Part shown: piece after piece, positions 455 to 18,926 of the stretch | How positions within the stretch are numbered: the first letter of the stretch is position 1 | Layout: the number at the start of each line of letters is the position of its first letter | Virus record (IMG/VR): IMGVR_UViG_3300042860_001796 | Location: 1 to 31,076 of that record | Strand: one strand, 5' to 3' | Length of the DNA stretch: 31,076 nt | Source: a virus | The notes under the pieces: generated by a model | Database searches by the model: none | Told to the model about the DNA's origin: nothing | Seen by the model: only the letters and a program-made list of their open reading frames with translations | Program-made: the position numbers and the translations under genes

Positions 455-514
455 CACATTAATAAATTGTGTATATTTATATATGATTCTACTACAAAAA
501 ATAGGAATTTATAT

Positions 515-1804
515 ATGAATAGAAGACATTTTTTATCAATAGGATCATTATGTTTTAGTAGCTATACCCTTGCTTTGCCAGATATATTGAAAGCAGATAC
601 AATCAATGGAAAAAAAAAGAATTTAATCAATATATTTTTGGCTGGAGGACCACCACATCTCGATTTGTGGGATTTAAAACCAGACGCTCCATCAGAAATA
701 AGGGGATTATTTAAGCCAATTTCTACCAATGTAAATGGAATACAAATTTGTGAAGTATTCGATAAACTATCGAAAAGGATTGATAAATGTTCTATCATAA
801 GATCAATAATTAATTCTCATGGAGATCATGCTGCATTTCAATGCATGACAGGATGGAAGCCAGATAATTTAAAAAATATTGGTGGTAGACCATCTATAGG
901 CTCTGTTATATCTAGACTACATGGCTCAAACGATCCATCTATACCAGCATACATTGGTCTAGCAGCACCAACGCAGCACATGCCTTGGAGTGATTCTGGT
1001 ACTGGAGGATTTTTAGGCCAGACTTATAATCCATTTAAGCCAAGTGGGGATAGTATTAAAGATATGACTCTTCATATTGATGCTAAAAGATTGTATGATA
1101 GAAAAAATCTATTATTACAATTAGATCAACTTAAGCAAGATATTGATTTTAATCTAAGATTTAATAGTTATGATAAACATGTTGAAAAGTCATTTGAAAT
1201 ATTGACAGATAATAAGTTATTACAAGCACTAGATATATCTAAGGTAAACAAAGACATATTAGAAAAATATGGAGATGGTAAGCCTTATAAATATCAATAT
1301 GATGGAGCGCCCACAGATAATAGTCAATTATTAATAGCAAAAAGACTGCTTGAAGCAGGGGCTAGAGTTGTATCTTTGAGTTATGGTAGATGGGATAGTC
1401 ATGGTGCTAATTTTGATTTAGTTAAAGATCATGGATCTAAATTAGATCAATGCTTATCGGCTTTAATAGATGACTTACAGACATCAGATATGCTTGATAA
1501 TACATTAGTTATAGTTTGGGGAGAGTTTGGACGAACACCAAAAATTAATAAGGACGCAGGAAGAGATCATTGGCCTCAAGTAAATAGCGCTTTATTATTT
1601 GGTGGCGGATTGAAACATGGACAGGTTATTGGATCAACGAATAAACTTGGTGAATATGCTGTAGATAGACCTGTTGATTTTCAAGAAGTGGTAGCTACAA
1701 TATATAACACTCTTGGTGTAGAAACTTCCTCAACTACTATTATTGATACAACAGGAAGACCACAATACTTAGTAGACCATCCATATATGAAAGAATTGAT
1801 ATGA
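515..1804 (+). CDS. DUF1501 family exported protein, copy 1
   Basis: A 429-residue protein of the DUF1501 family, related to the alkaline phosphatase/sulfatase superfamily and very common in Planctomycetes; its reaction is not established. The ATG at 515 is preferred over an earlier in-frame start because it has AGGA upstream and gives the Tat-like N-terminus MNRRHFLS followed by a hydrophobic stretch. Family landmarks: GGPPHLDLWD (44-53), SHGDHA (101-106), WDSHG (293-297), GEFGRTP (336-342) and GRDHWP (349-354), whose Asp and His residues are candidate metal ligands. The length is normal for the family. Its stop overlaps the start of copy 2 (ATGA). Export by the host Tat system is inferred from the N-terminus. 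Confidence 0.85.
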   Translation: MNRRHFLSIGSLCFSSYTLALPDILKADTINGKKKNLINIFLAGGPPHLDLWDLKPDAPSEIRGLFKPISTNVNGIQICEVFDKLSKRIDKCSIIRSIINSHGDHAAFQCMTGWKPDNLKNIGGRPSIGSVISRLHGSNDPSIPAYIGLAAPTQHMPWSDSGTGGFLGQTYNPFKPSGDSIKDMTLHIDAKRLYDRKNLLLQLDQLKQDIDFNLRFNSYDKHVEKSFEILTDNKLLQALDISKVNKDILEKYGDGKPYKYQYDGAPTDNSQLLIAKRLLEAGARVVSLSYGRWDSHGANFDLVKDHGSKLDQCLSALIDDLQTSDMLDNTLVIVWGEFGRTPKINKDAGRDHWPQVNSALLFGGGLKHGQVIGSTNKLGEYAVDRPVDFQEVVATIYNTLGVETSSTTIIDTTGRPQYLVDHPYMKELI

Positions 1805-3045
1805 ACAGAAGACATTTTTTATCGCATCTCAATGGAACAATTGCACTTACATCAAGTACAGTTTTATTGCAGAATTCTATTTTAGCAAATGCTGAAAAAC
1901 TTAAAAAACAAAACAAAAGTACAATATTATTATGGATGAGCGGTGGTCCTAGTACTATAGATATTTGGGATTTAAAACCAAATAGTCCAAGCGGTGGACC
2001 ATTTAAACCAATATCTACTAATGTCGATGGAATACAAATATGCGAGCATTTACCATTATTATCTAAAAACATGGATAATCTTAGTATTGTTCGCAGTATG
2101 AGTACAAGGGAAGCTGATCATGGCAGAGGTAGATACTATATGCATACTGGATATGTGCCTAATCCTAATGTGGAATATCCAAGTTATGGATCAGTTATAT
2201 CTCATGAATTGTTAAAAAATACTACTAATCAGATAGGAATACCACCTTTTATTAGTATAGGTGGTGCCAGTATTGGTCCGGGGTTTTTAGGTGCTACATA
2301 TTCCCCACTTGTTGTTGATTATAATGGAACAATTAGAAATTTACAATCAAGTGTAGATTATCAAACCGTGCAAAGAAGATTAGAAGTTCTATCAGTAATA
2401 GAGAACAAATTTATTCAAGAAAAACGAGGAGAATTAGCAAGCGATCACGCTAAAATGTTGAATAAAACTGTTGATTTAATGTTTGGTCCACATACTCAAG
2501 TCTTAAACATAAATAAAGAACCACAAAACATTCGTGATAGATATGGCAACACTTCATTTGGTAAAGGTTGTCTCATGGCAAGAAGACTAGTAGAAATTGG
2601 CGTACCATTCATAGAAGTAGATATGGGTGGATGGGATAATCATATGGATATTTTTACAACACTACCAGATAAACTATCTCAAATGGATATTGGAATGAGT
2701 GCATTAATTGAAGATCTAGTAAGTAGGGGATTGTATGACAATACCACCATTATATGGATGGGGGAATTTGGTAGAACTCCAGATATAAATAAAAATGCTG
2801 GTAGAGATCACTGGGCTAGAAGCTGGAGTGCTGTAGTTGGTGGTGGAAAATTAAACAAAGGCATAGTTGTTGGTGAAACTGATGATGATGGAAAAAAGGT
2901 AATAAGTGAAGCTTATTCTTCAGAAGATTTAATGGCAACTATACTAAAAAGTTTGGATATTTCACTTGAAACTACATTTACCTCTAAAAATGGTCGTCCA
3001 ATGAAGATTGCTAATTCTGGACGAGTAATTAAAGAACTATTCTAA
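1801..3045 (+). CDS. DUF1501 family exported protein, copy 2
   Basis: A 414-residue DUF1501 paralogue starting in an ATGA overlap with copy 1, so the two are probably translationally coupled. The N-terminus MNRRHFLSHL plus a hydrophobic stretch ending in LANA looks like a Tat signal peptide with a signal-peptidase site near residue 31. Family motifs are all present: SGGPSTIDIWDLKP (47-60), GGWDNH, GEFGRTP and AGRDHWA. The first eight residues equal those of copy 1, but the rest has diverged clearly, so this is an old tandem pair and not a recent duplication. No DUF1553/DUF1549 cytochrome partner, usual beside DUF1501 in planctomycete genomes, is present. Function unknown; an exported hydrolase is the best guess. 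Confidence 0.85.
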   Translation: MNRRHFLSHLNGTIALTSSTVLLQNSILANAEKLKKQNKSTILLWMSGGPSTIDIWDLKPNSPSGGPFKPISTNVDGIQICEHLPLLSKNMDNLSIVRSMSTREADHGRGRYYMHTGYVPNPNVEYPSYGSVISHELLKNTTNQIGIPPFISIGGASIGPGFLGATYSPLVVDYNGTIRNLQSSVDYQTVQRRLEVLSVIENKFIQEKRGELASDHAKMLNKTVDLMFGPHTQVLNINKEPQNIRDRYGNTSFGKGCLMARRLVEIGVPFIEVDMGGWDNHMDIFTTLPDKLSQMDIGMSALIEDLVSRGLYDNTTIIWMGEFGRTPDINKNAGRDHWARSWSAVVGGGKLNKGIVVGETDDDGKKVISEAYSSEDLMATILKSLDISLETTFTSKNGRPMKIANSGRVIKELF

Positions 3046-4807: not shown

Positions 4808-5157
4808 GGGCCGGTAAAGGTATCGATTGGATCGTAGTTATTATGGTTAGCAAGTAGTGGTTGATCGACAGGCCACTTTAAAAGTCGATTAAACGCTTTA
4901 ACTGGCGTAACACAGTTAGCTCTTGCTGCTTGAGAAAGTAGCAACAATCTTAGGAAGCGATGAAGGTAGCGTCCAAAAGATTGTCGTTAAATCCTTCTGC
5001 TGCTAGAATAGCCAACGGGTTCTAGCTAAGATTTGTTGGTACGGAAAGATGAATGTTGATTGTTCTTTAATCTTTCTTAAGAATTTATGAACAACTAAAC
5101 TTGTAGAAGCTATATTAACACTATCACAAGACATGGGTTCGACTCCCATCCGGTCCA
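4808..5157 (+). ncRNA. ssrA: tmRNA (ssrA), phage-encoded
   Basis: A complete one-piece transfer-messenger RNA of about 350 nt. The acceptor stem GGGCCGG (4808-4814) pairs with CCGGTCC (5150-5156), putting a G-U at the third pair, the alanyl-tRNA synthetase identity element; the discriminator is A5157. The T arm is ATGGG-TTCGACT-CCCAT (5133-5149). CCA is not encoded. The tag frame reads GCT (4895) to TGA (4931-4933) and encodes ALTGVTQLALAA; the TAAAC before the resume codon resembles the conserved region of bacterial tmRNA. A clear H-type pseudoknot follows: GCTAGAA (5002-5008) with TTCTAGC (5020-5026), interlocked with CCAAC (5012-5016) and GTTGG (5035-5039). It would free stalled ribosomes and tag peptides for proteolysis, presumably with host SmpB, as no smpB is seen here. 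Confidence 0.93.
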
Positions 5158-5168
5158 CTTAAATAATA

Positions 5169-8970: not shown

Positions 8971-9801
8971 ATGCTTAATATCGGCTCTAATGAAATAAAA
9001 AAAATATACTTTAGCTCTCAAGAAGTGCAAAAAATATATGGTGGCTCATTATTAATTCCAACACAATCAACCACCACTACAACAACCACTGCTGCTCCAA
9101 CAACCACAACCACAACCACTGCGGCACCAACCACCACAACAACCTCAACTACTACTACCACTGCGGCACCATTTTCACCAATGGCAGTTATGCTAACAAC
9201 TGGTTCTTCATATACAGTACCAACTGGTGCCACCACTATGAAAGCATGGGCTATTGGAAGTGGTGGAAACTACGAAAAGGGGGCTGGTGGAACAGCATAT
9301 AAAACTTGGAATGTTAATGGCGGCTCTTCTGTAGCTTATACAGTTGGTGCTGCTGTTAATAATGCTAATTATGGCTCATTTGGTAATAATACAACAATAA
9401 CATATGATAACACAACCATTACCGGCTGTGGTGGAGGTAGGTTAATTAGTGGATTTGGATTCAATGGTGGTGACGGTGGCGCTAACGGTGGGGGTGGAGG
9501 ATATCAAGGTGGTGGAGAATACGCTAACGGAGCAGTTGGTGGAAATACTCCACAGGGTGTGGGTAGGCCAGTATTTAAAGCAACAGATATAGACGGCCTA
9601 TTTGCCGTATTAAATCTATTAGGAATAGATCCAACTACATACGTTAATTATAATTATGATATGACTAATCCAAATGTATTTGGTGCTGGTACTAAATTTG
9701 ATAAGTATGGAAGTTTTGCCTCTGGCGGTATAGGCGGCGGTAATGGATTCGGCACAGTAGAAACTAGAGAAACTGGAGCAGTAATACTTTACTTTACATA
9801 A
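8971..9801 (+). CDS. Tail-fibre/adhesin-like protein with Thr-repeat linker and Gly-rich domain
   Basis: A 276-residue protein in three parts. Residues 1-27 (IGSNEIKKIYFSSQEVQKIY) form a short repeat-like module seen at the start of phage tail proteins. Residues 31-66 are almost only Thr, Ala and Pro (TTTTTTAAP repeats), a flexible linker common in phage fibres. The remainder is a Gly-rich domain with GGxGG runs (for example GGDGGANGGGGGYQGGG), like receptor-binding Gly-rich proteins, ending in a beta-like strand ETGAVILYFT. It probably sits at the tail tip and contacts the host surface. It lies directly ahead of the glycan/sulfation module, whose products could be its partner or its modification. 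Confidence 0.7.
   Translation: MLNIGSNEIKKIYFSSQEVQKIYGGSLLIPTQSTTTTTTTAAPTTTTTTTAAPTTTTTSTTTTTAAPFSPMAVMLTTGSSYTVPTGATTMKAWAIGSGGNYEKGAGGTAYKTWNVNGGSSVAYTVGAAVNNANYGSFGNNTTITYDNTTITGCGGGRLISGFGFNGGDGGANGGGGGYQGGGEYANGAVGGNTPQGVGRPVFKATDIDGLFAVLNLLGIDPTTYVNYNYDMTNPNVFGAGTKFDKYGSFASGGIGGGNGFGTVETRETGAVILYFT
9070..9171 (+). repeat. Imperfect Thr-codon (ACN) repeats
   Basis: Tandem ACC/ACA/ACT codons broken by GCTGCTCCA or GCGGCACCA blocks, encoding three to four Thr-run/AAP units. Slippage in this tract could vary linker length between related phages. The antisense V-rich frame here is only its shadow. Confidence 0.8.
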
Positions 9802-9803
9802 TC

Positions 9804-10280
9804 ATGCCAAGCATATTAACAAGCCCGAATGGAAATAGTATAATTCTAATTCCTCGCAGTGGATCGCACTCAATAGCAATGGCTATGTTACAGTCCTTTT
9901 ATCCAGATATAGAAATAACAGATTCATATCATCCTGCTTATTTTTATCCAATTAGCCAAGACAATGGTCAAAAATGTGTTATTGTTAGAAATCCAATTGA
10001 AAGATTTCGATCTATGGTGGCTCATGGAAATAGAACAGTTGAAGAACAATTAGAAAATCCAATATACGGCTGCGAGTTCTGCCATATTACAAATTATGAC
10101 AGAGCATTTTTATTTGAAACGCAATTACAAGATTGCGCAAATTGGCTTGGAATTACAGTGCCATTGCCACATTTGGATGCTAGTGAAAATAAACCTATTT
10201 TAACGCCAGAACAAGAAAATAGAGTTCGTGAAATATATGCAATAGATATTGAATTATGGGAGTCATTGATGAATCCATAA
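9804..10280 (+). CDS. Small sulfotransferase-like protein, copy 1
   Basis: A 158-residue protein with the two PAPS-binding signatures of sulfotransferases: IPRSGS (16-21), the 5'-phosphosulfate loop, and VIVRNPIERFRSMV (59-72), the 3'-phosphate motif. It would transfer sulfate from PAPS to a sugar, protein or lipid hydroxyl. At 158 residues it is much shorter than typical carbohydrate sulfotransferases (about 250-350) and the acceptor part is minimal, so it may be reduced or regulatory. It starts two bases after the adhesin-like gene, without a clear ribosome site, and is followed by a glycosyltransferase. No PAPS synthesis gene is in the window. Confidence 0.65.
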   Translation: MPSILTSPNGNSIILIPRSGSHSIAMAMLQSFYPDIEITDSYHPAYFYPISQDNGQKCVIVRNPIERFRSMVAHGNRTVEEQLENPIYGCEFCHITNYDRAFLFETQLQDCANWLGITVPLPHLDASENKPILTPEQENRVREIYAIDIELWESLMNP

Positions 10281-10284
10281 TTTT

Positions 10285-11154
10285 ATGAGTCAAAAATTAT
10301 TAACAATTGGTATGGCAACATATGATGATTATGATGGAGTATTTTTTACAATACAAAGTTTAAGAATGTATCATGAAATCTGTAACACAGATTCTGTAGA
10401 ATATATTGTTTTAGATAATAATCCAAATAGCGAAAGCGGAAAAGTTACAAAAAAATTTGTTGAAAACGGATTAAATCAACTTGGTAAATACATACCAAAA
10501 GAAGATAAAAGTTCTAGTTTTAACAAATATGAAATAGTAAAACATGCTATTGGAAAATATGTTCTTATTATTGATTGTCATGTTTTATTAGTTAAAGGCG
10601 CTATTAATTCGTTATTAAATTATTATGCAGAAAATAAGGATTGTAAGAACTTGATACAGGGACCGTTGATTTATGATGATCTAAAAAATTTTTCTACTCA
10701 TTTTGATCCCAATTGGAGCGGAGATATGTACGGAACATGGGCTACTGATCATGAAAAATATAAATCTAATAAACCATTTGAGATACTAATGCATGGTATG
10801 GGTTTGTGTTCTTTTGAAAAGAAAAACTGGCCGGGAATATGTGAACACTTTAAAGGATTTGGTGGAGAAGAAGGATATATAGCAGAAAAATTTAGAAGAA
10901 ATGGTGGCAAAAATATATGCTTGCCACAACTTGGATGGGTACATAGATTTGGAAGACCGCTTGGTGTAAAATATCCATTAATACTTGAAGATAGGATATG
11001 GAATTATTTTGTTGGATGGCTAGAATTAACTCAAGATCCAGATCATGAAATGATAAAACAAATTTTCTCATATTTTAAATCAAGAATACCAGAAAGCTCT
11101 ATAGAAAACATATTTAATTCCGCTCTAAATATAATCAAACTAAAAAATGAATAG
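10285..11154 (+). CDS. Family 2-like glycosyltransferase
   Basis: A 289-residue GT-A fold glycosyltransferase resembling family 2. The N-terminal strand LLTIGMATYDD leads into the nucleotide-sugar domain; YIVLDNNPNSE (40-50) and VLIIDCHVLLVKGAI (93-107) are the expected core strands, with Asp97 in the place of the DxD metal-binding motif (here DCH). HGMGLCSFEKKNW and FGGEEGYIAEKFRRNGG correspond to the acceptor-side ED-like motif of GT2 enzymes, and LGWVHRFGRP follows. No membrane segment, so cytoplasmic. Donor and acceptor are unknown. It overlaps the following DUF1501 gene by 8 bases. Confidence 0.8.
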   Translation: MSQKLLTIGMATYDDYDGVFFTIQSLRMYHEICNTDSVEYIVLDNNPNSESGKVTKKFVENGLNQLGKYIPKEDKSSSFNKYEIVKHAIGKYVLIIDCHVLLVKGAINSLLNYYAENKDCKNLIQGPLIYDDLKNFSTHFDPNWSGDMYGTWATDHEKYKSNKPFEILMHGMGLCSFEKKNWPGICEHFKGFGGEEGYIAEKFRRNGGKNICLPQLGWVHRFGRPLGVKYPLILEDRIWNYFVGWLELTQDPDHEMIKQIFSYFKSRIPESSIENIFNSALNIIKLKNE

Positions 11155-12418
11155 AAGAAATATATTACAGCTTGGCGCATTGAGTTGTATTGGTATTAAT
11201 AATACTAATTATTCAATGTTAATTGCAGATGATAACATTGCTACAGAAGCAAAAGCAAAATCTGTAATTTACATATATTTACCCGGTGGATTTTCTACCC
11301 AAGAAACATTTGATCCTAAACCATTTGCCCCAGCAGAATACAGGGGGCCACTATCATCAATAGATACTTCAATTACTGGAATTAAATTTAGCGAATTATT
11401 GAAAGATACTGCCAAGATTGCAGATAAGATAACAGTAATACGATCTATGAACCATAATGAGGCAGCACATGAACGTGGAACACACAATATGTTTACCGGA
11501 TGGCGACCATCGCCAGCAATACAATACCCCAGTATTGGTTCTATAGTGGGTCATGAATTAGGTGGAAAAAACAATCTACCACCCTATATTACAGTACCAA
11601 ATGTACCTAATGAATTCGCTGGTGCCGGTTATTTAAGTCATTCATATTCTTCTTTTAGTCTTGGTGGAAATCCAGAAGATCCCAATTTTAAAGTAAGAGA
11701 TCTAAGATTGCCAGAAGGAATATCGATACAAAGATTTGATAAAAGAAAAAAAATGTTGGAGGTCGTCAATAAAAATTTTGATGCAACACAAAAATCTGAT
11801 GCTTTAGTTGCCATGAATTCATTTTATGAAAATGCTTTTGAGCTAATGGATTCTAATGCGGCTATAGAGGCATTTGATTTATCATTAGAAAAAGATGAAA
11901 CAAAAGAAACATATGGCAAGAATTCTGCTGGCATGAGGATGTTATTATCAAGAAGGCTAGTAGAAGCTGGAGTAAGATTTATAACAATGACATATGGTGG
12001 ATGGGATCATCATGATAATATTGCTACTAATATGCAAACTCAATTACCACCTTTTGATAAAGCATTTTCAAGTTTAATACTTGATTTAGAATCAAGAGGA
12101 TTATTAGAATCTACATTGGTAGTAGTTGGAACAGAGTTTGGAAGAACACCAAAAATAAATCCAACTGCCGGAAGAGATCATTGGCCCAAGCTATATAGTG
12201 GAATAATGGCTGGTGGCGGTATAAAATCTGGAATAGTATATGGATCTAGCAATGATACGGCCACTGATCCACTAGATAATCCTGTGTCAGTAGAAGATTG
12301 GGCCTCGACTATATATACACTACTTGGTATTAATCCAGAAAAACATATTATGGCTCCCGGCAATAGACCTGTAAAAATAGTAGATGGCGGAAAACCAATA
12401 TTAGAAATAATTGTATGA
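11147..12418 (+). CDS. DUF1501 family exported protein, copy 3
   Basis: A 423-residue DUF1501 protein inside the glycan module. It begins MNRRNILQLGALSCIGI, a twin-arginine-like start. GGFSTQETFDPKP (47-59) is closer to the usual planctomycete form of the family than copies 1 and 2; the Asp that is third in LDLWD of copy 1 is Glu here. GGWDHHDN, GTEFGRTP and AGRDHWPK are the other landmarks, so the putative metal site is intact. Separate position and sequence suggest independent acquisition from copies 1 and 2. It is coupled on both sides (8-base overlap before, ATGA after), so it probably works with the glycosyl- and sulfotransferases, perhaps as an exported phosphatase- or sulfatase-like enzyme. 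Confidence 0.85.
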   Translation: MNRRNILQLGALSCIGINNTNYSMLIADDNIATEAKAKSVIYIYLPGGFSTQETFDPKPFAPAEYRGPLSSIDTSITGIKFSELLKDTAKIADKITVIRSMNHNEAAHERGTHNMFTGWRPSPAIQYPSIGSIVGHELGGKNNLPPYITVPNVPNEFAGAGYLSHSYSSFSLGGNPEDPNFKVRDLRLPEGISIQRFDKRKKMLEVVNKNFDATQKSDALVAMNSFYENAFELMDSNAAIEAFDLSLEKDETKETYGKNSAGMRMLLSRRLVEAGVRFITMTYGGWDHHDNIATNMQTQLPPFDKAFSSLILDLESRGLLESTLVVVGTEFGRTPKINPTAGRDHWPKLYSGIMAGGGIKSGIVYGSSNDTATDPLDNPVSVEDWASTIYTLLGINPEKHIMAPGNRPVKIVDGGKPILEIIV

Positions 12419-12750
12419 CACTTGTTAGATTCTTAAATACTTTTCTTTGTATATTAGTATTTGCTGGCTTGACATCAAAATATTGTATTGCGGATGATTT
12501 ATATATTTTTAGTGCCAAATGGTGTCCTTCCTGTGTTAATTTAAAAAAATTTCTAGATGATAATACAGATCTACATGACATATACAATATTGTGATTATC
12601 GATATAGATGAATCACCAGATCTAAAAAAACATTTTAAAATTAGAGTTGTGCCAACTACTATCATTCTAAATGATGATTCTTTAGAAGTAGCAAGAATAA
12701 CTGGATACGACAATTCTTATCAGAACAGACTAAAAAAATTAATGAAATAA
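12415..12750 (+). CDS. Exported thioredoxin-fold protein
   Basis: A 111-residue protein with a signal-peptide-like N-terminus (hydrophobic run about residues 8-20, then KYCIADD) and a thioredoxin core: LYIFSAKWCPSCVNLKKFL with the CPSC redox pair, followed by VVIIDIDESPDLKKHFKIRV and VPTTIIL containing the cis-Pro. It would reduce or exchange disulfides outside the cytoplasm. It overlaps the DUF1501 gene by ATGA, which suggests a role in folding or activity of exported proteins, though copy 3 has few Cys. The cytoplasmic phage glutaredoxin role is unlikely given the signal peptide. Confidence 0.75.
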   Translation: MTLVRFLNTFLCILVFAGLTSKYCIADDLYIFSAKWCPSCVNLKKFLDDNTDLHDIYNIVIIDIDESPDLKKHFKIRVVPTTIILNDDSLEVARITGYDNSYQNRLKKLMK

Positions 12751-12761
12751 GGGAAAATAAA

Positions 12762-13625
12762 TTGGATATTGAAATCTTTGCTATCAATGAAACCAAGAAA
12801 AATAATCAACCAAAACAACTAGTACTAAATAATAAACAATATAAATTAGCTATTGATAGTTTTAAACACGAAATATCATATTACGAATTATCTGCTCAAA
12901 TACATAAAATAAGTATTGATGATTTACCTAGCCAAGTAAAATCTAGTATTGTTATTATAGTTGATAATACATTTTATGTAGAAGATGATTACTTAAATAA
13001 GATCATTTCTATTAATAATTTATTAAGAGATGGTGGTATATTCTGTGGCCCAACTAATACACATACACACGCCTCACTTAATAATGGTATCCATAAGATA
13101 AATCAAAAATATCAAAGATATAATCTTGATAATGGTCATAATGTTATATCAGATCTTACTGAAGAAATACATCTATATCCAGATTTATTATACTGTGCCA
13201 TATCTGGAAGAGCCTATAATGATTTTTCCTATAGGCCAGTAATTTCATATAGACATAAAAATATAAGTAATAAATTATTTATAGCACAAATGGCTAATAG
13301 ATATCGTGTTTATTATTGTAGTACACTGAGTAAAATAAAATATCTAGATGAAATAGATTTTTCAATGGAAAAGATATCTGATTTTTATTATGATTCTGGA
13401 TACCAAGATGGATTATTAGTCAGCAATAAAAACTTAGATGAAAAAAGAAAAGAATTGTGGCATAGATTTGTAGAGTCTCCAGAAATGCTAGATAATGAAA
13501 TGCCAAGATGGCTATTAGATTCAAATCCAGACATGGATGGTGATTATTTGGAAAATTTGGTTATATGTAAGTGTAAATATCAAATAGGATTTTATGAGGG
13601 GATGCTATCTAGAAAACTGATATGA
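12762..13625 (+). CDS. Unknown protein of the glycan module, possibly glycosyltransferase-like
   Basis: A 287-residue protein beginning at TTG (12762), with AAGGGA about nine bases upstream and no ATG near; the next Met is far inside. The N-terminal 80 residues end in SIVIIVDNTFYVEDDYLNKI, which looks like a GT-A strand with an acidic motif, then RDGGIFCGPTNTH. Further on are YCAISGRAYND and a Tyr-rich stretch. The last part (ESPEMLDNEMPRWLLDSNPD) is acidic. I do not recognise a family firmly; a divergent glycosyltransferase is the best guess from neighbours and from the DD-type motif. It overlaps the next gene by ATGA. Confidence 0.6.
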   Translation: MDIEIFAINETKKNNQPKQLVLNNKQYKLAIDSFKHEISYYELSAQIHKISIDDLPSQVKSSIVIIVDNTFYVEDDYLNKIISINNLLRDGGIFCGPTNTHTHASLNNGIHKINQKYQRYNLDNGHNVISDLTEEIHLYPDLLYCAISGRAYNDFSYRPVISYRHKNISNKLFIAQMANRYRVYYCSTLSKIKYLDEIDFSMEKISDFYYDSGYQDGLLVSNKNLDEKRKELWHRFVESPEMLDNEMPRWLLDSNPDMDGDYLENLVICKCKYQIGFYEGMLSRKLI

Positions 13626-14587
13626 TTACAATTGATTTATCTAAGTCATCTGGATTTATACATCATAGATCTGGATGGCAGTTTTGTTTAAGCCAATTAA
13701 AAACACTACACTCACGTAGTGGTATTTTTTGTGATGACTTTATTGAAAGATCTTTTTCTTGGTATTTATACGATCATTTTCGTGGAAAAAGTATTCATAA
13801 AATACCATATAAGCATAAATGGATAGGTTTTTTGCATAACCCGCCAAATATGCCAAATTGGTTTAATTATTTTGATTCCCCAAATGCTATATTGAGTCGT
13901 CCAATTTTTCAAGAATCTTTAAAAACATGTAAGCTTTTAATTGTACTATCTAAGTATTTGAAAGAATGGCTTTCGTCGCGTGTTGATGTTCCAATAATAG
14001 ATCTTAAGCATCCAACACAGATTCCAAAGTTAAAATGGTGTCCAGATAAATTTATACACCAGCGTTGCAAGCCAGTAATACAACTAGGATATTGGTTAAG
14101 AAAATTAGATTCACTACATAAATTAAATATAGGAACAGATTATACAAAAATCTGGCTTCCTAGTTCGTATGATTATACTTTAACTATGCTCGATGTATAC
14201 AACAAAACAAATCCAGACGCCCATCAATCTAGATATATGTGGGCTGGAGTATCAATGTTAAAATTTCTAGAAGCCGATCAATTTGATGAACTATTAACTA
14301 GGGGTGTAGTATTTTTGGATCTATATGATAGTTCTGCTAATAATGCGATCATAGAATCTATGTCTAGAAATACACCAATAATAGTAAATAAATTACCAGC
14401 AGTAGTTGAATATCTTGGTGCTGATTATCCATTATACTTTGATAATCTTTCTGAGGCTGAATCAAAAATAAGAAACACAGATTTAATCATCGAAGCCCAT
14501 GAATATCTAAAAAATATGCCTAAATACTTTTTAAGTGGCAGATATTTTGTCAATGATTTTAAGAAAAAGTTAGAGAATATATTATGA
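13622..14587 (+). CDS. GT-B fold glycosyltransferase-like protein
   Basis: A 321-residue protein. The N-terminal half contains HKWIGFLHNPPNMPNWF and KTCKLLIVLSKYLKEWL, matching the acceptor domain of GT-B enzymes (the sentinel 'serine-lys' segment where other family members have 'vS.....'). The C-terminal domain has VVFLDLYDSSANNAIIES and MSRNTPIIVNKLPAVVEYLG, the usual donor-binding region with its Glu (in AIIES). No signal or membrane segment. It is coupled to both neighbours by ATGA overlaps, so it is a core member of the module. Sugar and acceptor unknown. Confidence 0.7.
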   Translation: MITIDLSKSSGFIHHRSGWQFCLSQLKTLHSRSGIFCDDFIERSFSWYLYDHFRGKSIHKIPYKHKWIGFLHNPPNMPNWFNYFDSPNAILSRPIFQESLKTCKLLIVLSKYLKEWLSSRVDVPIIDLKHPTQIPKLKWCPDKFIHQRCKPVIQLGYWLRKLDSLHKLNIGTDYTKIWLPSSYDYTLTMLDVYNKTNPDAHQSRYMWAGVSMLKFLEADQFDELLTRGVVFLDLYDSSANNAIIESMSRNTPIIVNKLPAVVEYLGADYPLYFDNLSEAESKIRNTDLIIEAHEYLKNMPKYFLSGRYFVNDFKKKLENIL

Positions 14588-15312
14588 AGTTAATTTTTTC
14601 ACCAGTTCCAAGATCTGGTTCAACAGCTTTATGTGAGTATATAGCATATTCATCTGAAAGTACTTTGTCTGTGGAACCATATAATCCAGAGTGCAATGAA
14701 AATAGACAAGTAACATTAAAAGATAAGTTCGAAGAAATACAAACATATGATATTATAAAAATATTAGGCTGGCCTCTAGATATATTAGATAATTTTGAAA
14801 TAATAGATGTGGCTGAAAAGATTATTTTTTTATATAGAGAAAGTGTCTTGGATACTATGCTATCTAATATTGTATCGATGACCTATTCTGGAGACTATAA
14901 AATATACGAAAAGCATAGACTAAAAAATAGTTTTCAAAATGATGTAGCTCAGTCTTTATTAAATGATTTTTATTCTGAAGTAAGACCACCAATCGACTTA
15001 AAAGAATTTGCTGTCTGTTATTTTGATTTCATAAAAAATATTCAATGTTATTACAATTATGTAAAATTTTATCATAGCAATAAAACCTTAATAGTGAAAT
15101 ATGAGGATTTATATTCTGAAAATCAATCACTAGAACTAGATAAAATAATGCATTTTTTGAATTTGCAAGCAAAAAATATTGACAGTTTATCGCTGATGGA
15201 CGCATCAAATAAATTAAATAATTATGATACATATAAAAAAATTATACCAAATCTGGATGAAGTGATGAATTGGCATAAATGTTTAAATGAAAATGAGTGT
15301 TTATCAAAATGA
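14584..15312 (+). CDS. Sulfotransferase-like protein, copy 2
   Basis: A 242-residue protein with the sulfotransferase 5'-loop PVPRSGSTALCEYI (7-20) and the 3'-phosphate strand KIIFLYRESVLDTMLSNIVS (79-98), where Arg and Ser bind PAPS. TLIVKYEDLYSEN (about 168-180) is the further conserved block of carbohydrate sulfotransferases, and its length is near the normal family size. It is longer and more complete than the 158-residue copy, so it is the more likely active sulfotransferase of the module. It overlaps its neighbours by ATGA and 4 bases. The acceptor is most likely the glycan built by neighbouring enzymes; this is inference. Confidence 0.75.
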   Translation: MKLIFSPVPRSGSTALCEYIAYSSESTLSVEPYNPECNENRQVTLKDKFEEIQTYDIIKILGWPLDILDNFEIIDVAEKIIFLYRESVLDTMLSNIVSMTYSGDYKIYEKHRLKNSFQNDVAQSLLNDFYSEVRPPIDLKEFAVCYFDFIKNIQCYYNYVKFYHSNKTLIVKYEDLYSENQSLELDKIMHFLNLQAKNIDSLSLMDASNKLNNYDTYKKIIPNLDEVMNWHKCLNENECLSK

Positions 15313-16160
15313 AAAACTCAATATATACATCATATGGATTTGGAGTATTGAATAATAAAGAAAATATAGATTGGGTTAACTTGCAAAAAAATAAGATGAT
15401 AGAATATTGCAAGAAACATGGACTTGCTTTTAATGTAATAGATGAAAAAAATAAATTCATGCAAATTATACTCAATAATTTTCAGACAGATAAAAAACCT
15501 TCTTGTAAAGATTACAGTGTATATACATTAAGTGCAATAGCTGCAATATTGGATTTTTGTGATTCTGGTTATGACAATTTTTATTGGTTACATTTAGATA
15601 TGGCTATTAACTTAGATAATATTAATATCTTTGATATACTTAACATTGATAATAATCACGTTTATTGCTGGTCAAATAAAAAACCAACACAAGAAGACAA
15701 GATTGGTTGGGCAAATACAAAAATCGAATGGCTAAAATACCTCATATCTAAAATCAATTTATCGCAAGATGAAGAATTTTACACATTATCTAATGCGTCT
15801 CTAATTTTTGCAAACAAACAATCAGCTATGTCGTTTAAGCAAATATTGCTAGAACATCTTGATATATTAAATATCAAAATAGAAACAAAATGCATTGAGG
15901 AAACTATTTTAGAATTAGTGTATTACATATGTAAAAAGAAAAATTTAAATCTAAACATTAAGGAGTTTTGGGGGGCTAGAAAAACAGGTCCATATGCCCC
16001 AGCACAATTTTATGAAGAGTCATTTGATAATCTCTCCATAGATGAAACTGTAGACAAATATAAGAATGCGATATTTATACATTTTTGGGGTGAGAGCAAA
16101 AAACATATACCAGAATTTTATAGGCGAAAAAATGAAAATAATAATAACACTGTCTGGTAA
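15309..16160 (+). CDS. GT-A fold glycosyltransferase-like protein
   Basis: A 283-residue protein. The ATG at 15309 overlapping the previous stop is used rather than an earlier in-frame start. Features of a GT-A galactosyl/mannosyltransferase: SIYTSYGFG at the start, LAFNVIDEKNK, then YDNFYWLHLDMAINLDNINI with the HLDMAI acidic motif in the place of DxD, and NASLIFANKQSA. Near the end FIHFWGESKKHIPEFY contains the His that often helps bind the metal in this type. The acceptor is unknown. It overlaps the next gene by 29 bases. Confidence 0.6.
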   Translation: MKNSIYTSYGFGVLNNKENIDWVNLQKNKMIEYCKKHGLAFNVIDEKNKFMQIILNNFQTDKKPSCKDYSVYTLSAIAAILDFCDSGYDNFYWLHLDMAINLDNINIFDILNIDNNHVYCWSNKKPTQEDKIGWANTKIEWLKYLISKINLSQDEEFYTLSNASLIFANKQSAMSFKQILLEHLDILNIKIETKCIEETILELVYYICKKKNLNLNIKEFWGARKTGPYAPAQFYEESFDNLSIDETVDKYKNAIFIHFWGESKKHIPEFYRRKNENNNNTVW

Positions 16161-16965
16161 AAGTGAAAGATTTACTAAAAATGGATATCCAGAAAAATCA
16201 TTCATAAAAGTTGTAAATAAATACATGATTGAACATGTAATCAATATGTTTGATGGCATCTCACATGATAATATATATTTGATCACAAAAAATTGTAATG
16301 TTGCTAGTAATAGAATTCTACAAAAACTATTTCCAAAAATAAATATTAATCCAATATCGCCAAATTCAGATGGTCCAGTTGTATCAATATTATCGGCAAA
16401 TTTAGATATCAATCCAGAAGAAGAAATTATTGTAAGCTATTGTGATCTAGTAAGTATCTTTAATTTAGACAAACTAATTTCATATGTTCATACAAATAAT
16501 GCTGATGGATGTATATTGACACACTGTGGATTACATCCGCATAAATTTTACAATACTAATTTTGCACATGTTAGACATGATAGCAATAATAATGTATTAG
16601 AAATTAAAGAAAAAGGATGTTTTACAGCACATCCAATATTTGAACACGCATCTAATGGAATATATTATTTCAAATCATTCCAAATGATGAATCATTATTT
16701 TAGAAAATTGATAGAATCTGGCAACAGAGTCAATAATGAATTTTATGTAACAATGCCATATAATTTAATTATTAACGACAATCTAAAGATATTGATGTAT
16801 GAAACAGAACAATATATATGTCTTGGCACACCAAGAGATGTAGAATTAATAAATGCGTGGAATGATATCATAGTAAAGTCTAATATACATCAAGATGAAG
16901 ATTTAATTATGGTATATAACTATTGGAAGAAAATATTCAATGATAAATTTTATAGCTCCAATTAA
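16132..16965 (+). CDS. Sugar nucleotidyltransferase-like protein
   Basis: A 277-residue nucleotidyltransferase of the NTP_transferase type that activates a sugar or polyol phosphate with a nucleotide. IIITLSGKSERFTKNGYPEK (3-22) is the Gly-rich nucleotide loop ending in the conserved Lys, followed by SFIKVVNKYMIEHVIN; IIVSYCDLVS holds the metal-binding Asp. The end GTPRDVELINAW resembles the usual closing block GTP.D...a. The ATG at 16132 is chosen over an upstream in-frame start because TAGGCG lies seven bases before it and the family motif begins there. It would supply the donor for the neighbouring glycosyltransferases. Overlaps the next gene by 26 bases. Confidence 0.75.
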   Translation: MKIIITLSGKSERFTKNGYPEKSFIKVVNKYMIEHVINMFDGISHDNIYLITKNCNVASNRILQKLFPKININPISPNSDGPVVSILSANLDINPEEEIIVSYCDLVSIFNLDKLISYVHTNNADGCILTHCGLHPHKFYNTNFAHVRHDSNNNVLEIKEKGCFTAHPIFEHASNGIYYFKSFQMMNHYFRKLIESGNRVNNEFYVTMPYNLIINDNLKILMYETEQYICLGTPRDVELINAWNDIIVKSNIHQDEDLIMVYNYWKKIFNDKFYSSN

Positions 16966-18013
16966 TAATCTCGGCTATGGTATAGCTGGATATAATCTAC
17001 TGAAAGAATTATATCAAATAGATAATACAATTGCATTATATCCAATTTCAAGACCAGAAAATATGGATGATACCCATATTATATCTATAAGTATTAATAA
17101 TCAACTTTATTTTGATAAACATAGACCGTGTATAAAATTATGGCATCAACATGATTTACAGACCAAAGTTGGTAATGGTACATATTTTGGTTTTCCAATA
17201 TTTGAATTAACCAAATTTAATTCTCATGAAATAGTCAGTTTATCTCATTGTGATAAAATTATGGTATGTTCTAACTGGGCAAAAGAAGTCGTAATGAATA
17301 ATGTGAATAAATTTGATCAATCAGACATTCATGTAATTCCGCTTGGTGTAGATGCTACTGTATTTAGGCCATGTACACTGCCAAATAAAAGGTCAACTAC
17401 AGTCTTTCTCAATTGTGGAAAATGGGAAATTAGAAAAGGTCACGATATTATTGTTGAGTGTTTTAATAGGGCATTTACCTATCATGACGATGTAGAACTA
17501 TGGATGTTATGCGATAATCCTTTTATAGGCGAACAAAATAATGAATGGAAAAGCCTATATAAAAACTCACAGCTGGGTGAAAAAATAAGGATAATACCTA
17601 GACAGCAAACCCAAAAAGATGTGTATAATATTATGAGGCTCTCAGATTGTGGAATATTTCCATCTAGGGCTGAAGGGTGGAATTTAGAGTTACTTGAAAT
17701 GATGTCATGCGGAAAACATGTAATTACTACCAACTATTCTGCACATACAGAGTTTTGCAATAATCAAAATGCCATGCTTATAGATGTCGATAATCTAGAG
17801 ACAGCGTTTGATGGAGTATTTTTTGATGGTAAATGTGGTTTTTGGGCTGAGTTGTCTGATAATCAAAAAGAAGAAACTATAAGTCATATGAGGCTGGTGC
17901 ATAAGAAAAAACAGAACGGTGAACTAAATATTAATGTAGATGGTATTCAGACAGCAGAAAAATTTTCATGGCAAAACTCAGCTAAAGGAATATTAAATGC
18001 AACTCGACTTTAG
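16940..18013 (+). CDS. Family 4 glycosyltransferase
   Basis: A 357-residue GT-B glycosyltransferase of family 4. The acceptor domain starts INFIAPINNLGYGIAGYNL with the Gly-rich loop; KIMVCSNWAKEVV (106-118) and VIPLGVDATVFRP (132-144) lead into the donor domain. FLNCGKWEIRKGHD (156-169) and SRAEGWNLELLEMMSCGK (242-259) are the diagnostic donor-binding blocks; Glu245 and Glu253 form the EX7E pair. It is the clearest glycosyltransferase in the window and closes the module. Its 3' end overlaps the peptidase gene by 17 bases. Donor unknown. Confidence 0.88.
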   Translation: MINFIAPINNLGYGIAGYNLLKELYQIDNTIALYPISRPENMDDTHIISISINNQLYFDKHRPCIKLWHQHDLQTKVGNGTYFGFPIFELTKFNSHEIVSLSHCDKIMVCSNWAKEVVMNNVNKFDQSDIHVIPLGVDATVFRPCTLPNKRSTTVFLNCGKWEIRKGHDIIVECFNRAFTYHDDVELWMLCDNPFIGEQNNEWKSLYKNSQLGEKIRIIPRQQTQKDVYNIMRLSDCGIFPSRAEGWNLELLEMMSCGKHVITTNYSAHTEFCNNQNAMLIDVDNLETAFDGVFFDGKCGFWAELSDNQKEETISHMRLVHKKKQNGELNINVDGIQTAEKFSWQNSAKGILNATRL

Positions 18014-18926
18014 TACTCCATCAAAAATTCTAAAGACGTACAAGGATGGATTCGTCGGTAGCATTTGTGATCCAGAAGATACTGATAAATTATTGGGTGA
18101 ATTAAGACATCCATTATTCGGTGCTGCTGCATATAAATTATATGGAACAGGAAAAGGAAAATTATCTCTTCCATTTAAAAATCTATTAAAATTCGATCCT
18201 AATTTTGGTCCTTCAGAAAGACAAGTAGTTGGTGATTGTGTCTCACACTCTACTCGTAATGCAATAGATATCACTAGAAGCTGTGAAATTATCAATGGAG
18301 AAAATGAAGAGTTTGTTGCTCGCGGTGCTACAGAAGGCATATATGGTTCACGCGGACACGGTGGTGAAGGCATGACATGTTCTGGTGCGGCAAGATTTGT
18401 CAAACAAACTGGTGGTGTATTAATTAGACAAAAATATGACAATATTGATTTAACATCATATCAAGGTAAACTTGCATCGTCTTGGGGACGAAGCGGGCCA
18501 CCTAAGACGCTTATAGAAGAAGCACAAAAGAGGCCAGTAAGAACAGCCAGTTTAATAACAACCGTAGAAGAGGCCAGAGACGCTCTGGCAAATGGATATG
18601 GCATAAGCGTATGTTCAATGTTTGGATTCAGTTCTCGTAGAGATAAGTATGGTATAGCCGCCCCATCTGGATCTTGGGCGCACGCTATGGCTTGGATAGC
18701 CGCAGATGATACCCATGAAATATATAATGAAACTCTTTTCTTGGTTCAAAATAGTTGGGGAGTTTGGAATAATGGCCCAAAACGACACGATCAACCAGAT
18801 GGAAGTTTTTGGATTAGAGAATCTGTAGCCCGTGATATGTTAGGCTCTAGTGGATCATGGGTGTTTAGTGATGTTGATGGCTTTCCAGCAAGAAATATAG
18901 ATTGGACTCTTGATGAGGTATTTTAA
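17997..18926 (+). CDS. Papain-like (C1 family) cysteine peptidase
   Basis: A 309-residue protein with a papain-type catalytic arrangement: Gln76 and Cys81 in RQVVGDCVSHS, His229 in GSWAHAMAW, and Asn252 in LVQNSWG. The order Cys-His-Asn and the NSWG block are typical of the C1 clan. There is no signal peptide or evident pro-domain; about 70 residues precede the active site. It would cleave proteins, or peptide bonds in the cell envelope. It starts inside the GT4 gene with AAAGGA upstream and is followed by small exported and membrane proteins, so lysis, entry or virion maturation are all possible. Which is correct cannot be told here. Confidence 0.78.
   Translation: MQLDFSTPSKILKTYKDGFVGSICDPEDTDKLLGELRHPLFGAAAYKLYGTGKGKLSLPFKNLLKFDPNFGPSERQVVGDCVSHSTRNAIDITRSCEIINGENEEFVARGATEGIYGSRGHGGEGMTCSGAARFVKQTGGVLIRQKYDNIDLTSYQGKLASSWGRSGPPKTLIEEAQKRPVRTASLITTVEEARDALANGYGISVCSMFGFSSRRDKYGIAAPSGSWAHAMAWIAADDTHEIYNETLFLVQNSWGVWNNGPKRHDQPDGSFWIRESVARDMLGSSGSWVFSDVDGFPARNIDWTLDEVF

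Follow-up and report, generated by a model that had tools for sequence, protein, structure and literature searches.

A 31,076-base virus record from IMG/VR (IMGVR_UViG_3300042860_001796; the whole record, ~32% GC, is referred to here as the window) carries ten consecutive genes on its + strand between positions 9804 and 18013 (m1 to m10), directly behind a gene for a fibre- or adhesin-like protein. The block includes sulfotransferase-like, glycosyltransferase (GT), DUF1501 and thioredoxin-like members, and it raises the question of whether the ten genes form one system, as a first-pass annotation proposed when it described them as a module that builds, sulfates and exports a glycan. All ten open reading frames (ORFs) are open and joined by overlaps or short gaps, as that annotation had described. 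Comparison with related sequences indicates that a large phage carries cargo genes of mosaic make-up at positions 8971–18013, without a stable ten-gene order. Its first part is, on balance, probably a fibre-modification cassette in which the small protein m1 would sulfate the fibre tip or a glycan on the tip.

The gene m1 (9804..10280, +) is coupled to the fibre gene and encodes a protein of 158 aa, which its fold, motifs and context suggest to be a minimal sulfotransferase-like protein. Sulfotransferases that use 3'-phosphoadenosine 5'-phosphosulfate (PAPS) bind the phosphates of this donor through two motifs, [RK][ST]G[ST] in the 5'-phosphosulfate loop and R-x7-S at the 3'-phosphate. In m1 the sequence RSGS presumably represents the loop, and R62...S70 is taken to be the 3'-phosphate-binding motif. 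Across the 34 aligned members of the family, R18, R62, P64, R67, F68 and S70 are invariant, the Arg of the loop included. The AlphaFold model of m1 (pLDDT 89.5) has a sulfotransferase-like fold: all 50 rows shown by a structure search with VIA are sulfotransferases, Teg12 among them. They include heparan sulfate 6-O-sulfotransferase 5t05, aligned over 149/158 residues with an rmsd of 3.8 and a Z of 8.9, a value little above the 7–8 that the tool gives models without a clear match, and heparan sulfate 2-O-sulfotransferases (Z 7.9). The PAPS-binding residues expected by the first-pass annotation are therefore conserved in m1, in a model with the corresponding fold. Purifying selection acts on the gene (dN/dS 0.11–0.18). 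Relatives of m1 were found in 54 viral loci, and a broader profile matched 118 stretches, of which the best 80 were kept; no match was detected in 50,697 annotated phage records.

A position beside fibre genes recurs in many members of this family. ORFs were classed as fibre-like by composition (Ser+Thr+Gly >=33%, charged residues <=22%). In a first set, m1-like ORFs shorter than 100 aa and those at least 90% alike were removed, and 28 of the 29 remaining were preceded by another ORF; in 17 of these 28 non-redundant loci, the ORF immediately upstream of the m1-like gene is Ser/Thr/Gly-rich, compared with 106/426 ORFs of the same loci (Fisher p 1e-4) and 64/2,212 in other viral loci. The same rule, applied to a second set, identified such an ORF in 16 of 19 non-redundant loci, against 29/128 for other genes there (Fisher p 3e-7). 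This set began with 34 loci chosen by eye as new from the broader-profile search, 33 of them on contigs absent from the first set; three were dropped for want of a matching ORF and 11 because they were redundant or reached 90% likeness to a first-set member, so that 20 remained, 19 of them preceded by an ORF. Of the ORFs of the upstream type that were scanned (10 in PHROGs, 7 in Pfam), several have matches to families of tail fibres, tail spikes, baseplates or virion proteins, and the domains Mtd_N, Gly_rich_2, Laminin_G_3 and fn3 occur in several. Several members that did not enter the first count have a single enzyme gene between the fibre-like ORF and the m1-like gene, for example a second m1-like gene (loci L329, L330 and L332) or, judged by eye, a 2-oxoglutarate oxygenase (L333, L338–L340). 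L332 additionally carries a Sulfotransfer_4 gene (6e-25) and, in a further ORF, a weak match to an aspartyl hydroxylase. A Thr/Pro-rich ORF of locus L293 (10454-11917) ends in an FGE/C-lectin-like domain by eye, a type of domain on which diversity-generating retroelements act.

The fibre gene of the window (8971..9801, +) translates into a short N-terminus, a Thr-rich stalk (~9061-9171) and a Gly-rich C-terminal tip (9172-9798). By blastn, stalk, tip and m1 form a shared cassette at 9058..10357 (+), extended in most relatives by the first ~70 nt of the following GT2 gene, m2. This DNA is 83–86% identical to loci L292–L296 and L305, the N-terminal half of the fibre and the flanks being unlike, and the tip also occurs in longer fibre-like ORFs from other phages. 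Behind m1, L292–L294 retain the beginning of the GT2 gene in decayed form, and L257/L258 have fibre, m1-like and GT2 genes in the order of the window. When segments were compared (L292, L293, L294 and L296), m1 was 95–97% identical and the tip 79–83%, with a tip dN/dS of 0.38–0.54, looser than that of m1.

According to the favoured reading, the phage would make the fibre (8971–9801) and the adjoining m1 (9804–10280) would act upon it, transferring sulfate from host PAPS to the C-terminal tip region or, alternatively, to a sugar put on that region by the neighbouring GT2. The sulfate would alter how the tip is charged and how it binds, and thereby receptor choice or virion stability. The catalysis, the substrate, the order in which sugar and sulfate would be added and the benefit to the phage are what we infer here. 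A wider generalization is attractive, although we hold it only tentatively and somewhat short of probable: many large and jumbo phages may run a form of virion sulfation in which a minimal sulfotransferase directly behind the receptor-binding fibre, at times with a hydroxylase, another sulfotransferase or a GT2 as partner, adds sulfate to the tip or to mucin-like O-glycans of the Thr-rich stalk, thereby tuning host recognition, with tip and enzyme passing between phages as a cassette. The idea in the first-pass annotation of a sulfated virion, for which the Thr-rich adhesin is a possible acceptor, is independently supported as far as the first one or two genes of the block are concerned, and not for the rest.

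Several observations weigh against m1 as a fibre sulfotransferase. Concerning the fold, the modest Z given above is accompanied by the tool's own warning that a Z near 8 can reflect a common arrangement. Foldseek alone gave no match below 1e-3 for m1 (best 3rnl, 5.6e-3), and Pfam Sulfotransfer_2 is matched at E up to 0.1 by 5 of the 34 members (best 0.0073) and not by m1 itself. Nine of the 34 rows differ from [RK][ST]G[ST] after the Arg, so some members may be inactive. Concerning the linkage, the compositional rule is ad hoc, m1 loci are generally rich in fibre-like ORFs, as the background count indicates, and the second set samples the same gene family as the first, with L369 lying on the same contig as L333 as a separate gene. 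The fibre ORF of the window has no Pfam or PHROGs match, and the Thr run is missing from some upstream fibres. Silent sites are more diverged in the tip (dS 0.36–0.55) than in m1 (0.10–0.15), so the cassette appears internally shuffled and not the product of one clean transfer. The partner gene m2 is not generally tied to fibres: among 29 distinct m2-like ORFs from 65 loci, found by motif and required to have an upstream ORF, 18 adjoin a nuclease-like gene (by eye) and not a fibre. No APS kinase (adenosine 5'-phosphosulfate kinase) scored over the cut-off in the 17 phage records searched, many of which are fragments, so PAPS is presumably supplied by the host. Finally, no m1-like gene was found in 343 Planctomycetota genomes, in a search without a positive control, and the host itself, likely Planctomycetota, is one that we infer.

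The wider block does not travel as a unit. A search of IMG/VR with DUF1501 returned 31 loci, comprising seven near-identical contigs of the same phage (one retrieved via DUF1501 copy b, described below) and 24 others, 22 of which are at 66–71% identity. The ten-gene block occurs in none of these 24 loci, several of which are short; the only block genes that recur there are DUF1501, GT4 relatives (45–48%) and nucleotidyltransferase relatives (28–29%). Nor was the block found in loci retrieved via the GT2 gene or via the papain-like gene that follows it (17997..18926, +). On three contigs with both m1-like and DUF1501 genes, the two lie 19–39 kb apart. In relatives, DUF1501 follows RuvB- and rIIA-like genes and precedes ParM-like and protease-like genes, often near sugar genes (functions by eye). 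A partial order, m5-m6-m8-m10-papain in L181/L182, has identities of 24% and 39%, a weak local match, and 53% and 62%, respectively. The separable pieces are fibre tip plus m1, sometimes with the GT2; DUF1501; a variable glycan slot; and the GT4 with the papain-like gene. Outside the species, 18 of 71 listed loci have a GT4 relative immediately ahead of the papain-like gene. In seven of these 18, examined by eye, the slot ahead of the GT4 contains GT11-like fucosyltransferases, a methyltransferase, a gene of pilin-like or virion-like type, or hardly any cargo. Because the slot cargo varies and only sub-blocks recur, the block is best described as a mosaic with conserved pieces, in which the glycan genes m5–m9 would fill a variable slot ahead of a backbone pair. 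The pilin-like ORF (L205:6844-7965) resembles planctomycete DUF1559 proteins by eye.

The genes of the block differ in how clearly they can be assigned, and the family calls of the first-pass annotation held for six of them. Among these, m2 (10285..11154, +) is a GT-A fold glycosyltransferase of the GT2 type (PF00535, E 9e-7), in which D97 and H99 of the DxH motif, E195, E196 and H220 are invariant in 33/33 sequences; a weak GtrB-like PHROG match was also obtained (5.5e-4). Such GT2 genes are widespread in large phages, in two contexts, and no match to m2 was found in the 50,697 annotated records. Polypeptide GalNAc-transferases share a DxH ... GGE ... H metal/active-site pattern. This pattern is present in m2, but profile searches do not support assignment to that family: a PDB profile search returned only other glycosyltransferases and one unrelated lectin, and a Glyco_transf_7C match was absent. 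A general role as a dedicated fibre enzyme was rejected, given the nuclease-like neighbours noted above. The remaining assigned genes are m3 (DUF1501) and m4, treated below; m7 (14584..15312, +), a second sulfotransferase (Sulfotransfer_1, 23.8 bits against a curated cut-off of 22); m9 (16132..16965, +), a sugar-phosphate nucleotidyltransferase-like protein (NTP_transf_3, E 6.6e-7; phrog_3980); and m10 (16940..18013, +), a GT4 glycosyltransferase (E 2.4e-15). The listed start of m9, 16066, would create a 95-bp overlap with the preceding gene, so 16132 is probably correct. For m1 the family search gave a weak PHROG sulfotransferase match alone (E 0.0097). No clear family emerged from Pfam or PHROGs for m5 (12762..13625, +; possibly GT-like), m6 (13622..14587, +; GT-B-like by eye) or m8 (15297..16160, +; GT-A-like by eye), although m5 and m6 have relatives in L181/L182 and m8 a weak one in L181. 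In an exact-pattern scan, the viral relatives of m7 were near-identical contigs only (7 loci, 97–100%); one additional 24% match lies in a 484-kb uncultured phage.

The papain-like gene, which closes the cargo slot, is papain-like by eye and has no Pfam match. Counting near-identical ones, at least 153 relatives of it occur in viruses, of which the best 80 were kept; the 50,697 annotated phage records contain no match. In L293 (8200-10146) it is far longer (648 aa) and continues into an intein-like stretch by eye. Elsewhere, PADLOC gave no match for the ten block proteins (E up to 0.01) and thus no known anti-phage defence system, and the phage fragment carries a tmRNA gene at 4808-5158 with the tag GVTQLALAA.

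The DUF1501 protein m3 (11147..12418, +) matches PF07394 over its full length (1–390 of 390, E 1.8e-109) and begins with a twin-arginine N-terminus. The first-pass annotation had recognized this family in the block; the window in fact holds three such genes, the others forming a tandem of copy a (467..1804, +, true start probably 515) and copy b (1801..3045, +), which are 37% identical to each other and 33–34% to m3. The tandem adjoins a nucleoside deoxyribosyltransferase-like ORF. The model of m3 (pLDDT 79) has an alkaline-phosphatase-superfamily fold, with Z ~20 to nucleotide pyrophosphatases (NPP) and PafA over 245–274 residues in the best rows. H108, D287, H289, E330 and H345 are invariant in all 46 aligned DUF1501 rows, and active-site roles for them are a guess from motif positions. 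S1 sulfatases carry a CxPxR/SxPxR formylglycine signature. The pattern [CS]xPxR is absent from the three window proteins, for which a sulfatase assignment was accordingly rejected; an SxPxR string occurs in 2/46 rows, both bacterial. A twin arginine lies within the first 25 residues of 38/46 rows, the remaining eight being matches that start past the N-terminus, and m3 is probably exported by the twin-arginine translocation (Tat) pathway to act at the host envelope. The following gene, m4 (12415..12750, +), encodes a thioredoxin-like protein with a CxxC motif and, by eye, an apparent signal sequence (Pfam/PHROGs, E 8e-10).

In a tree of DUF1501 proteins, from which window copies a and b were left out, 12 phage proteins form one clade (100/100) adjoining Planctomycetaceae (98/93), and the DUF1501 of L030/L031 represents a second entry on the Verrucomicrobia side. 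The sequence relationships thus place the origin of the clade on the Planctomycetota side, and DUF1501 and the thioredoxin were probably acquired separately. One DUF1501 search yielded 147 matches, of which the best 80 were kept; a PSD1 relative lies nearby in 45 of 80 bacterial DUF1501 loci. Among 16 phage records selected from the DUF1501 IMG/VR loci, many of them fragments, PSD1 lies next to a further DUF1501 in two (L135 and L136; G013 and G015) and has no match in the other 14. An HNH-like ORF (by eye) sits between the PSD1 gene and DUF1501 in L135. The 50,697 annotated phage records hold a single partial DUF1501 match (27.8%).

These results bear on the original proposal that the ten genes are one operon building, sulfating and exporting a single glycan, with DUF1501 as an exported sulfatase or phosphatase, which we now consider improbable. 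Ten co-oriented genes without gaps and two sulfotransferase-type genes fit it, as does the occurrence of DUF1501 beside other sugar-type genes by eye (L012–L014, L018–L020, L026, L028, L029); in bacteria, PMC5122149 reports chitin synthases and a sugar epimerase in the neighbourhood of DUF1501-DUF1800 genes, and its figure legend adds a NodH sulfotransferase. The complete order, however, is confined to near-identical contigs, DUF1501 is unlinked from m1 in three relatives, and the sulfatase signature is lacking. Gaps of <=20 nt separate 9/9 gene pairs within the block and 30/40 pairs outside it, so tight packing is no evidence for one unit, equally tight spacing being normal elsewhere in the window. 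The ten-gene unit was therefore rejected, and as a new system the locus loses standing as a module while gaining it as a fibre-linked sulfotransferase family. Remodelling of the host surface, in which the glycosyltransferases and sulfotransferases would change an envelope glycan and block adsorption of other phages, is unlikely rather than improbable: the GtrB-like match of m2, the resemblance of m10 to exopolysaccharide GT4s (score below cut-off), the twin-arginine N-terminus of DUF1501 and slot contents that differ among relatives would agree with it. Yet m1 sits after fibre-like genes, no GtrA/GtrC-type Pfam match exists among the ten proteins, and m1-like genes were absent from the 343 Planctomycetota genomes, searched without a positive control, where lysogenic conversion genes might be expected.

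The place of m1 permits another interpretation, since in T4-like phages the gp38 gene occupies a comparable place at the fibre. The m1-like proteins could be retired sulfotransferase folds serving as fibre assembly factors, a possibility suggested by the altered first motif in 9/34 rows, the length of only ~160 aa and the location of the m1-like gene of L293 between a distal fibre and a holin-like ORF (by eye). The invariance of both phosphate-binding Arg residues and the Ser in 34/34 members, together with the Sulfotransfer_4 and weakly hydroxylase-like genes adjoining in L332, makes it quite unlikely. DNA hypermodification, with glycosyltransferases and sulfotransferases decorating phage DNA bases, appears very improbable. 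Nucleotide modification based on phage glycosyltransferases and sulfotransferases is reported in a passage of PMC10829341, but Pfam gives no base-oxidising or base-modifying family for any of the ten genes, and m1-like genes accompany fibre-like genes.

Planctomycetota are the likely hosts, because the origin of DUF1501 and the relatives of the papain-like gene both point there. The latter occur in 9/343 Planctomycetota and 0/337 Verrucomicrobiota genomes. One of them, on a Pirellulaceae contig (L342), is accompanied by a subtilisin-like ORF (by eye) and a short match to the window ORF at 18910 (15 residues, 80%), an arrangement that resembles the phage backbone. Five other bacterial papain-like loci show no further window relative in the <4 kb covered for each.

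If the fibre-linked reading is correct, sulfation would become a virion modification in phages, and a sulfotransferase family fixed beside receptor-binding fibres would provide a concrete, testable answer to what phage sulfotransferases do. The presence of a fibre-linked enzyme and one shared tip domain in unlike phages would be explained too, a point of importance when host range is predicted from sequence. In addition, phages that keep a planctomycete-type DUF1501, two relatives also with PSD1, offer a way into two large families whose function is unknown. A literature search for phage or virion sulfotransferase phrases found no paper in the library used, and co-mentions of sulfotransferase, tail fiber and phage were incidental in the excerpts retrieved.

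Comparison with known systems places the locus among, and apart from, several of them. The gtrABC genes are O-antigen conversion cassettes in which GtrA is a flippase and GtrC a type of membrane protein; m2 shares the GT2 type and a weak GtrB-like match with them, whereas GtrA/GtrC-type partners are absent from the block. Bacterial PF07394 proteins, found with PSCyt/PSD1 in Planctomycetes and Verrucomicrobia, are alike in the strong family match, the twin arginine and the invariant residues; here the gene is phage-borne in a ~32% GC window, with no PSD1 match in 14/16 records. Phage sulfotransferases have been listed as auxiliary genes (PMC10580990, PMC8290583), the former naming a Sulfotransfer_3 type and calling their function unclear; the likeness lies in their occurrence in phage genomes, and the relevant passages make no mention of fibre linkage. 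Heparan sulfate 6-O and 2-O sulfotransferases (Sulfotransfer_2) resemble m1 in fold, R-[ST]-G-[ST] loop and R-x7-S helix, whereas m1 is shorter (~160 aa compared with ~250 or more), scores weakly against the profile and stands in a phage fibre context. In mycobacteriophages, the enzymes of virion glycosylation are reportedly phage-coded. Capsid and tail tube carry sugars there (Freeman et al. 2023, as cited in PMC12619734). Both cases would concern virion proteins with added groups; in the present one, the candidate enzyme is a sulfotransferase tied to a fibre/adhesin gene.

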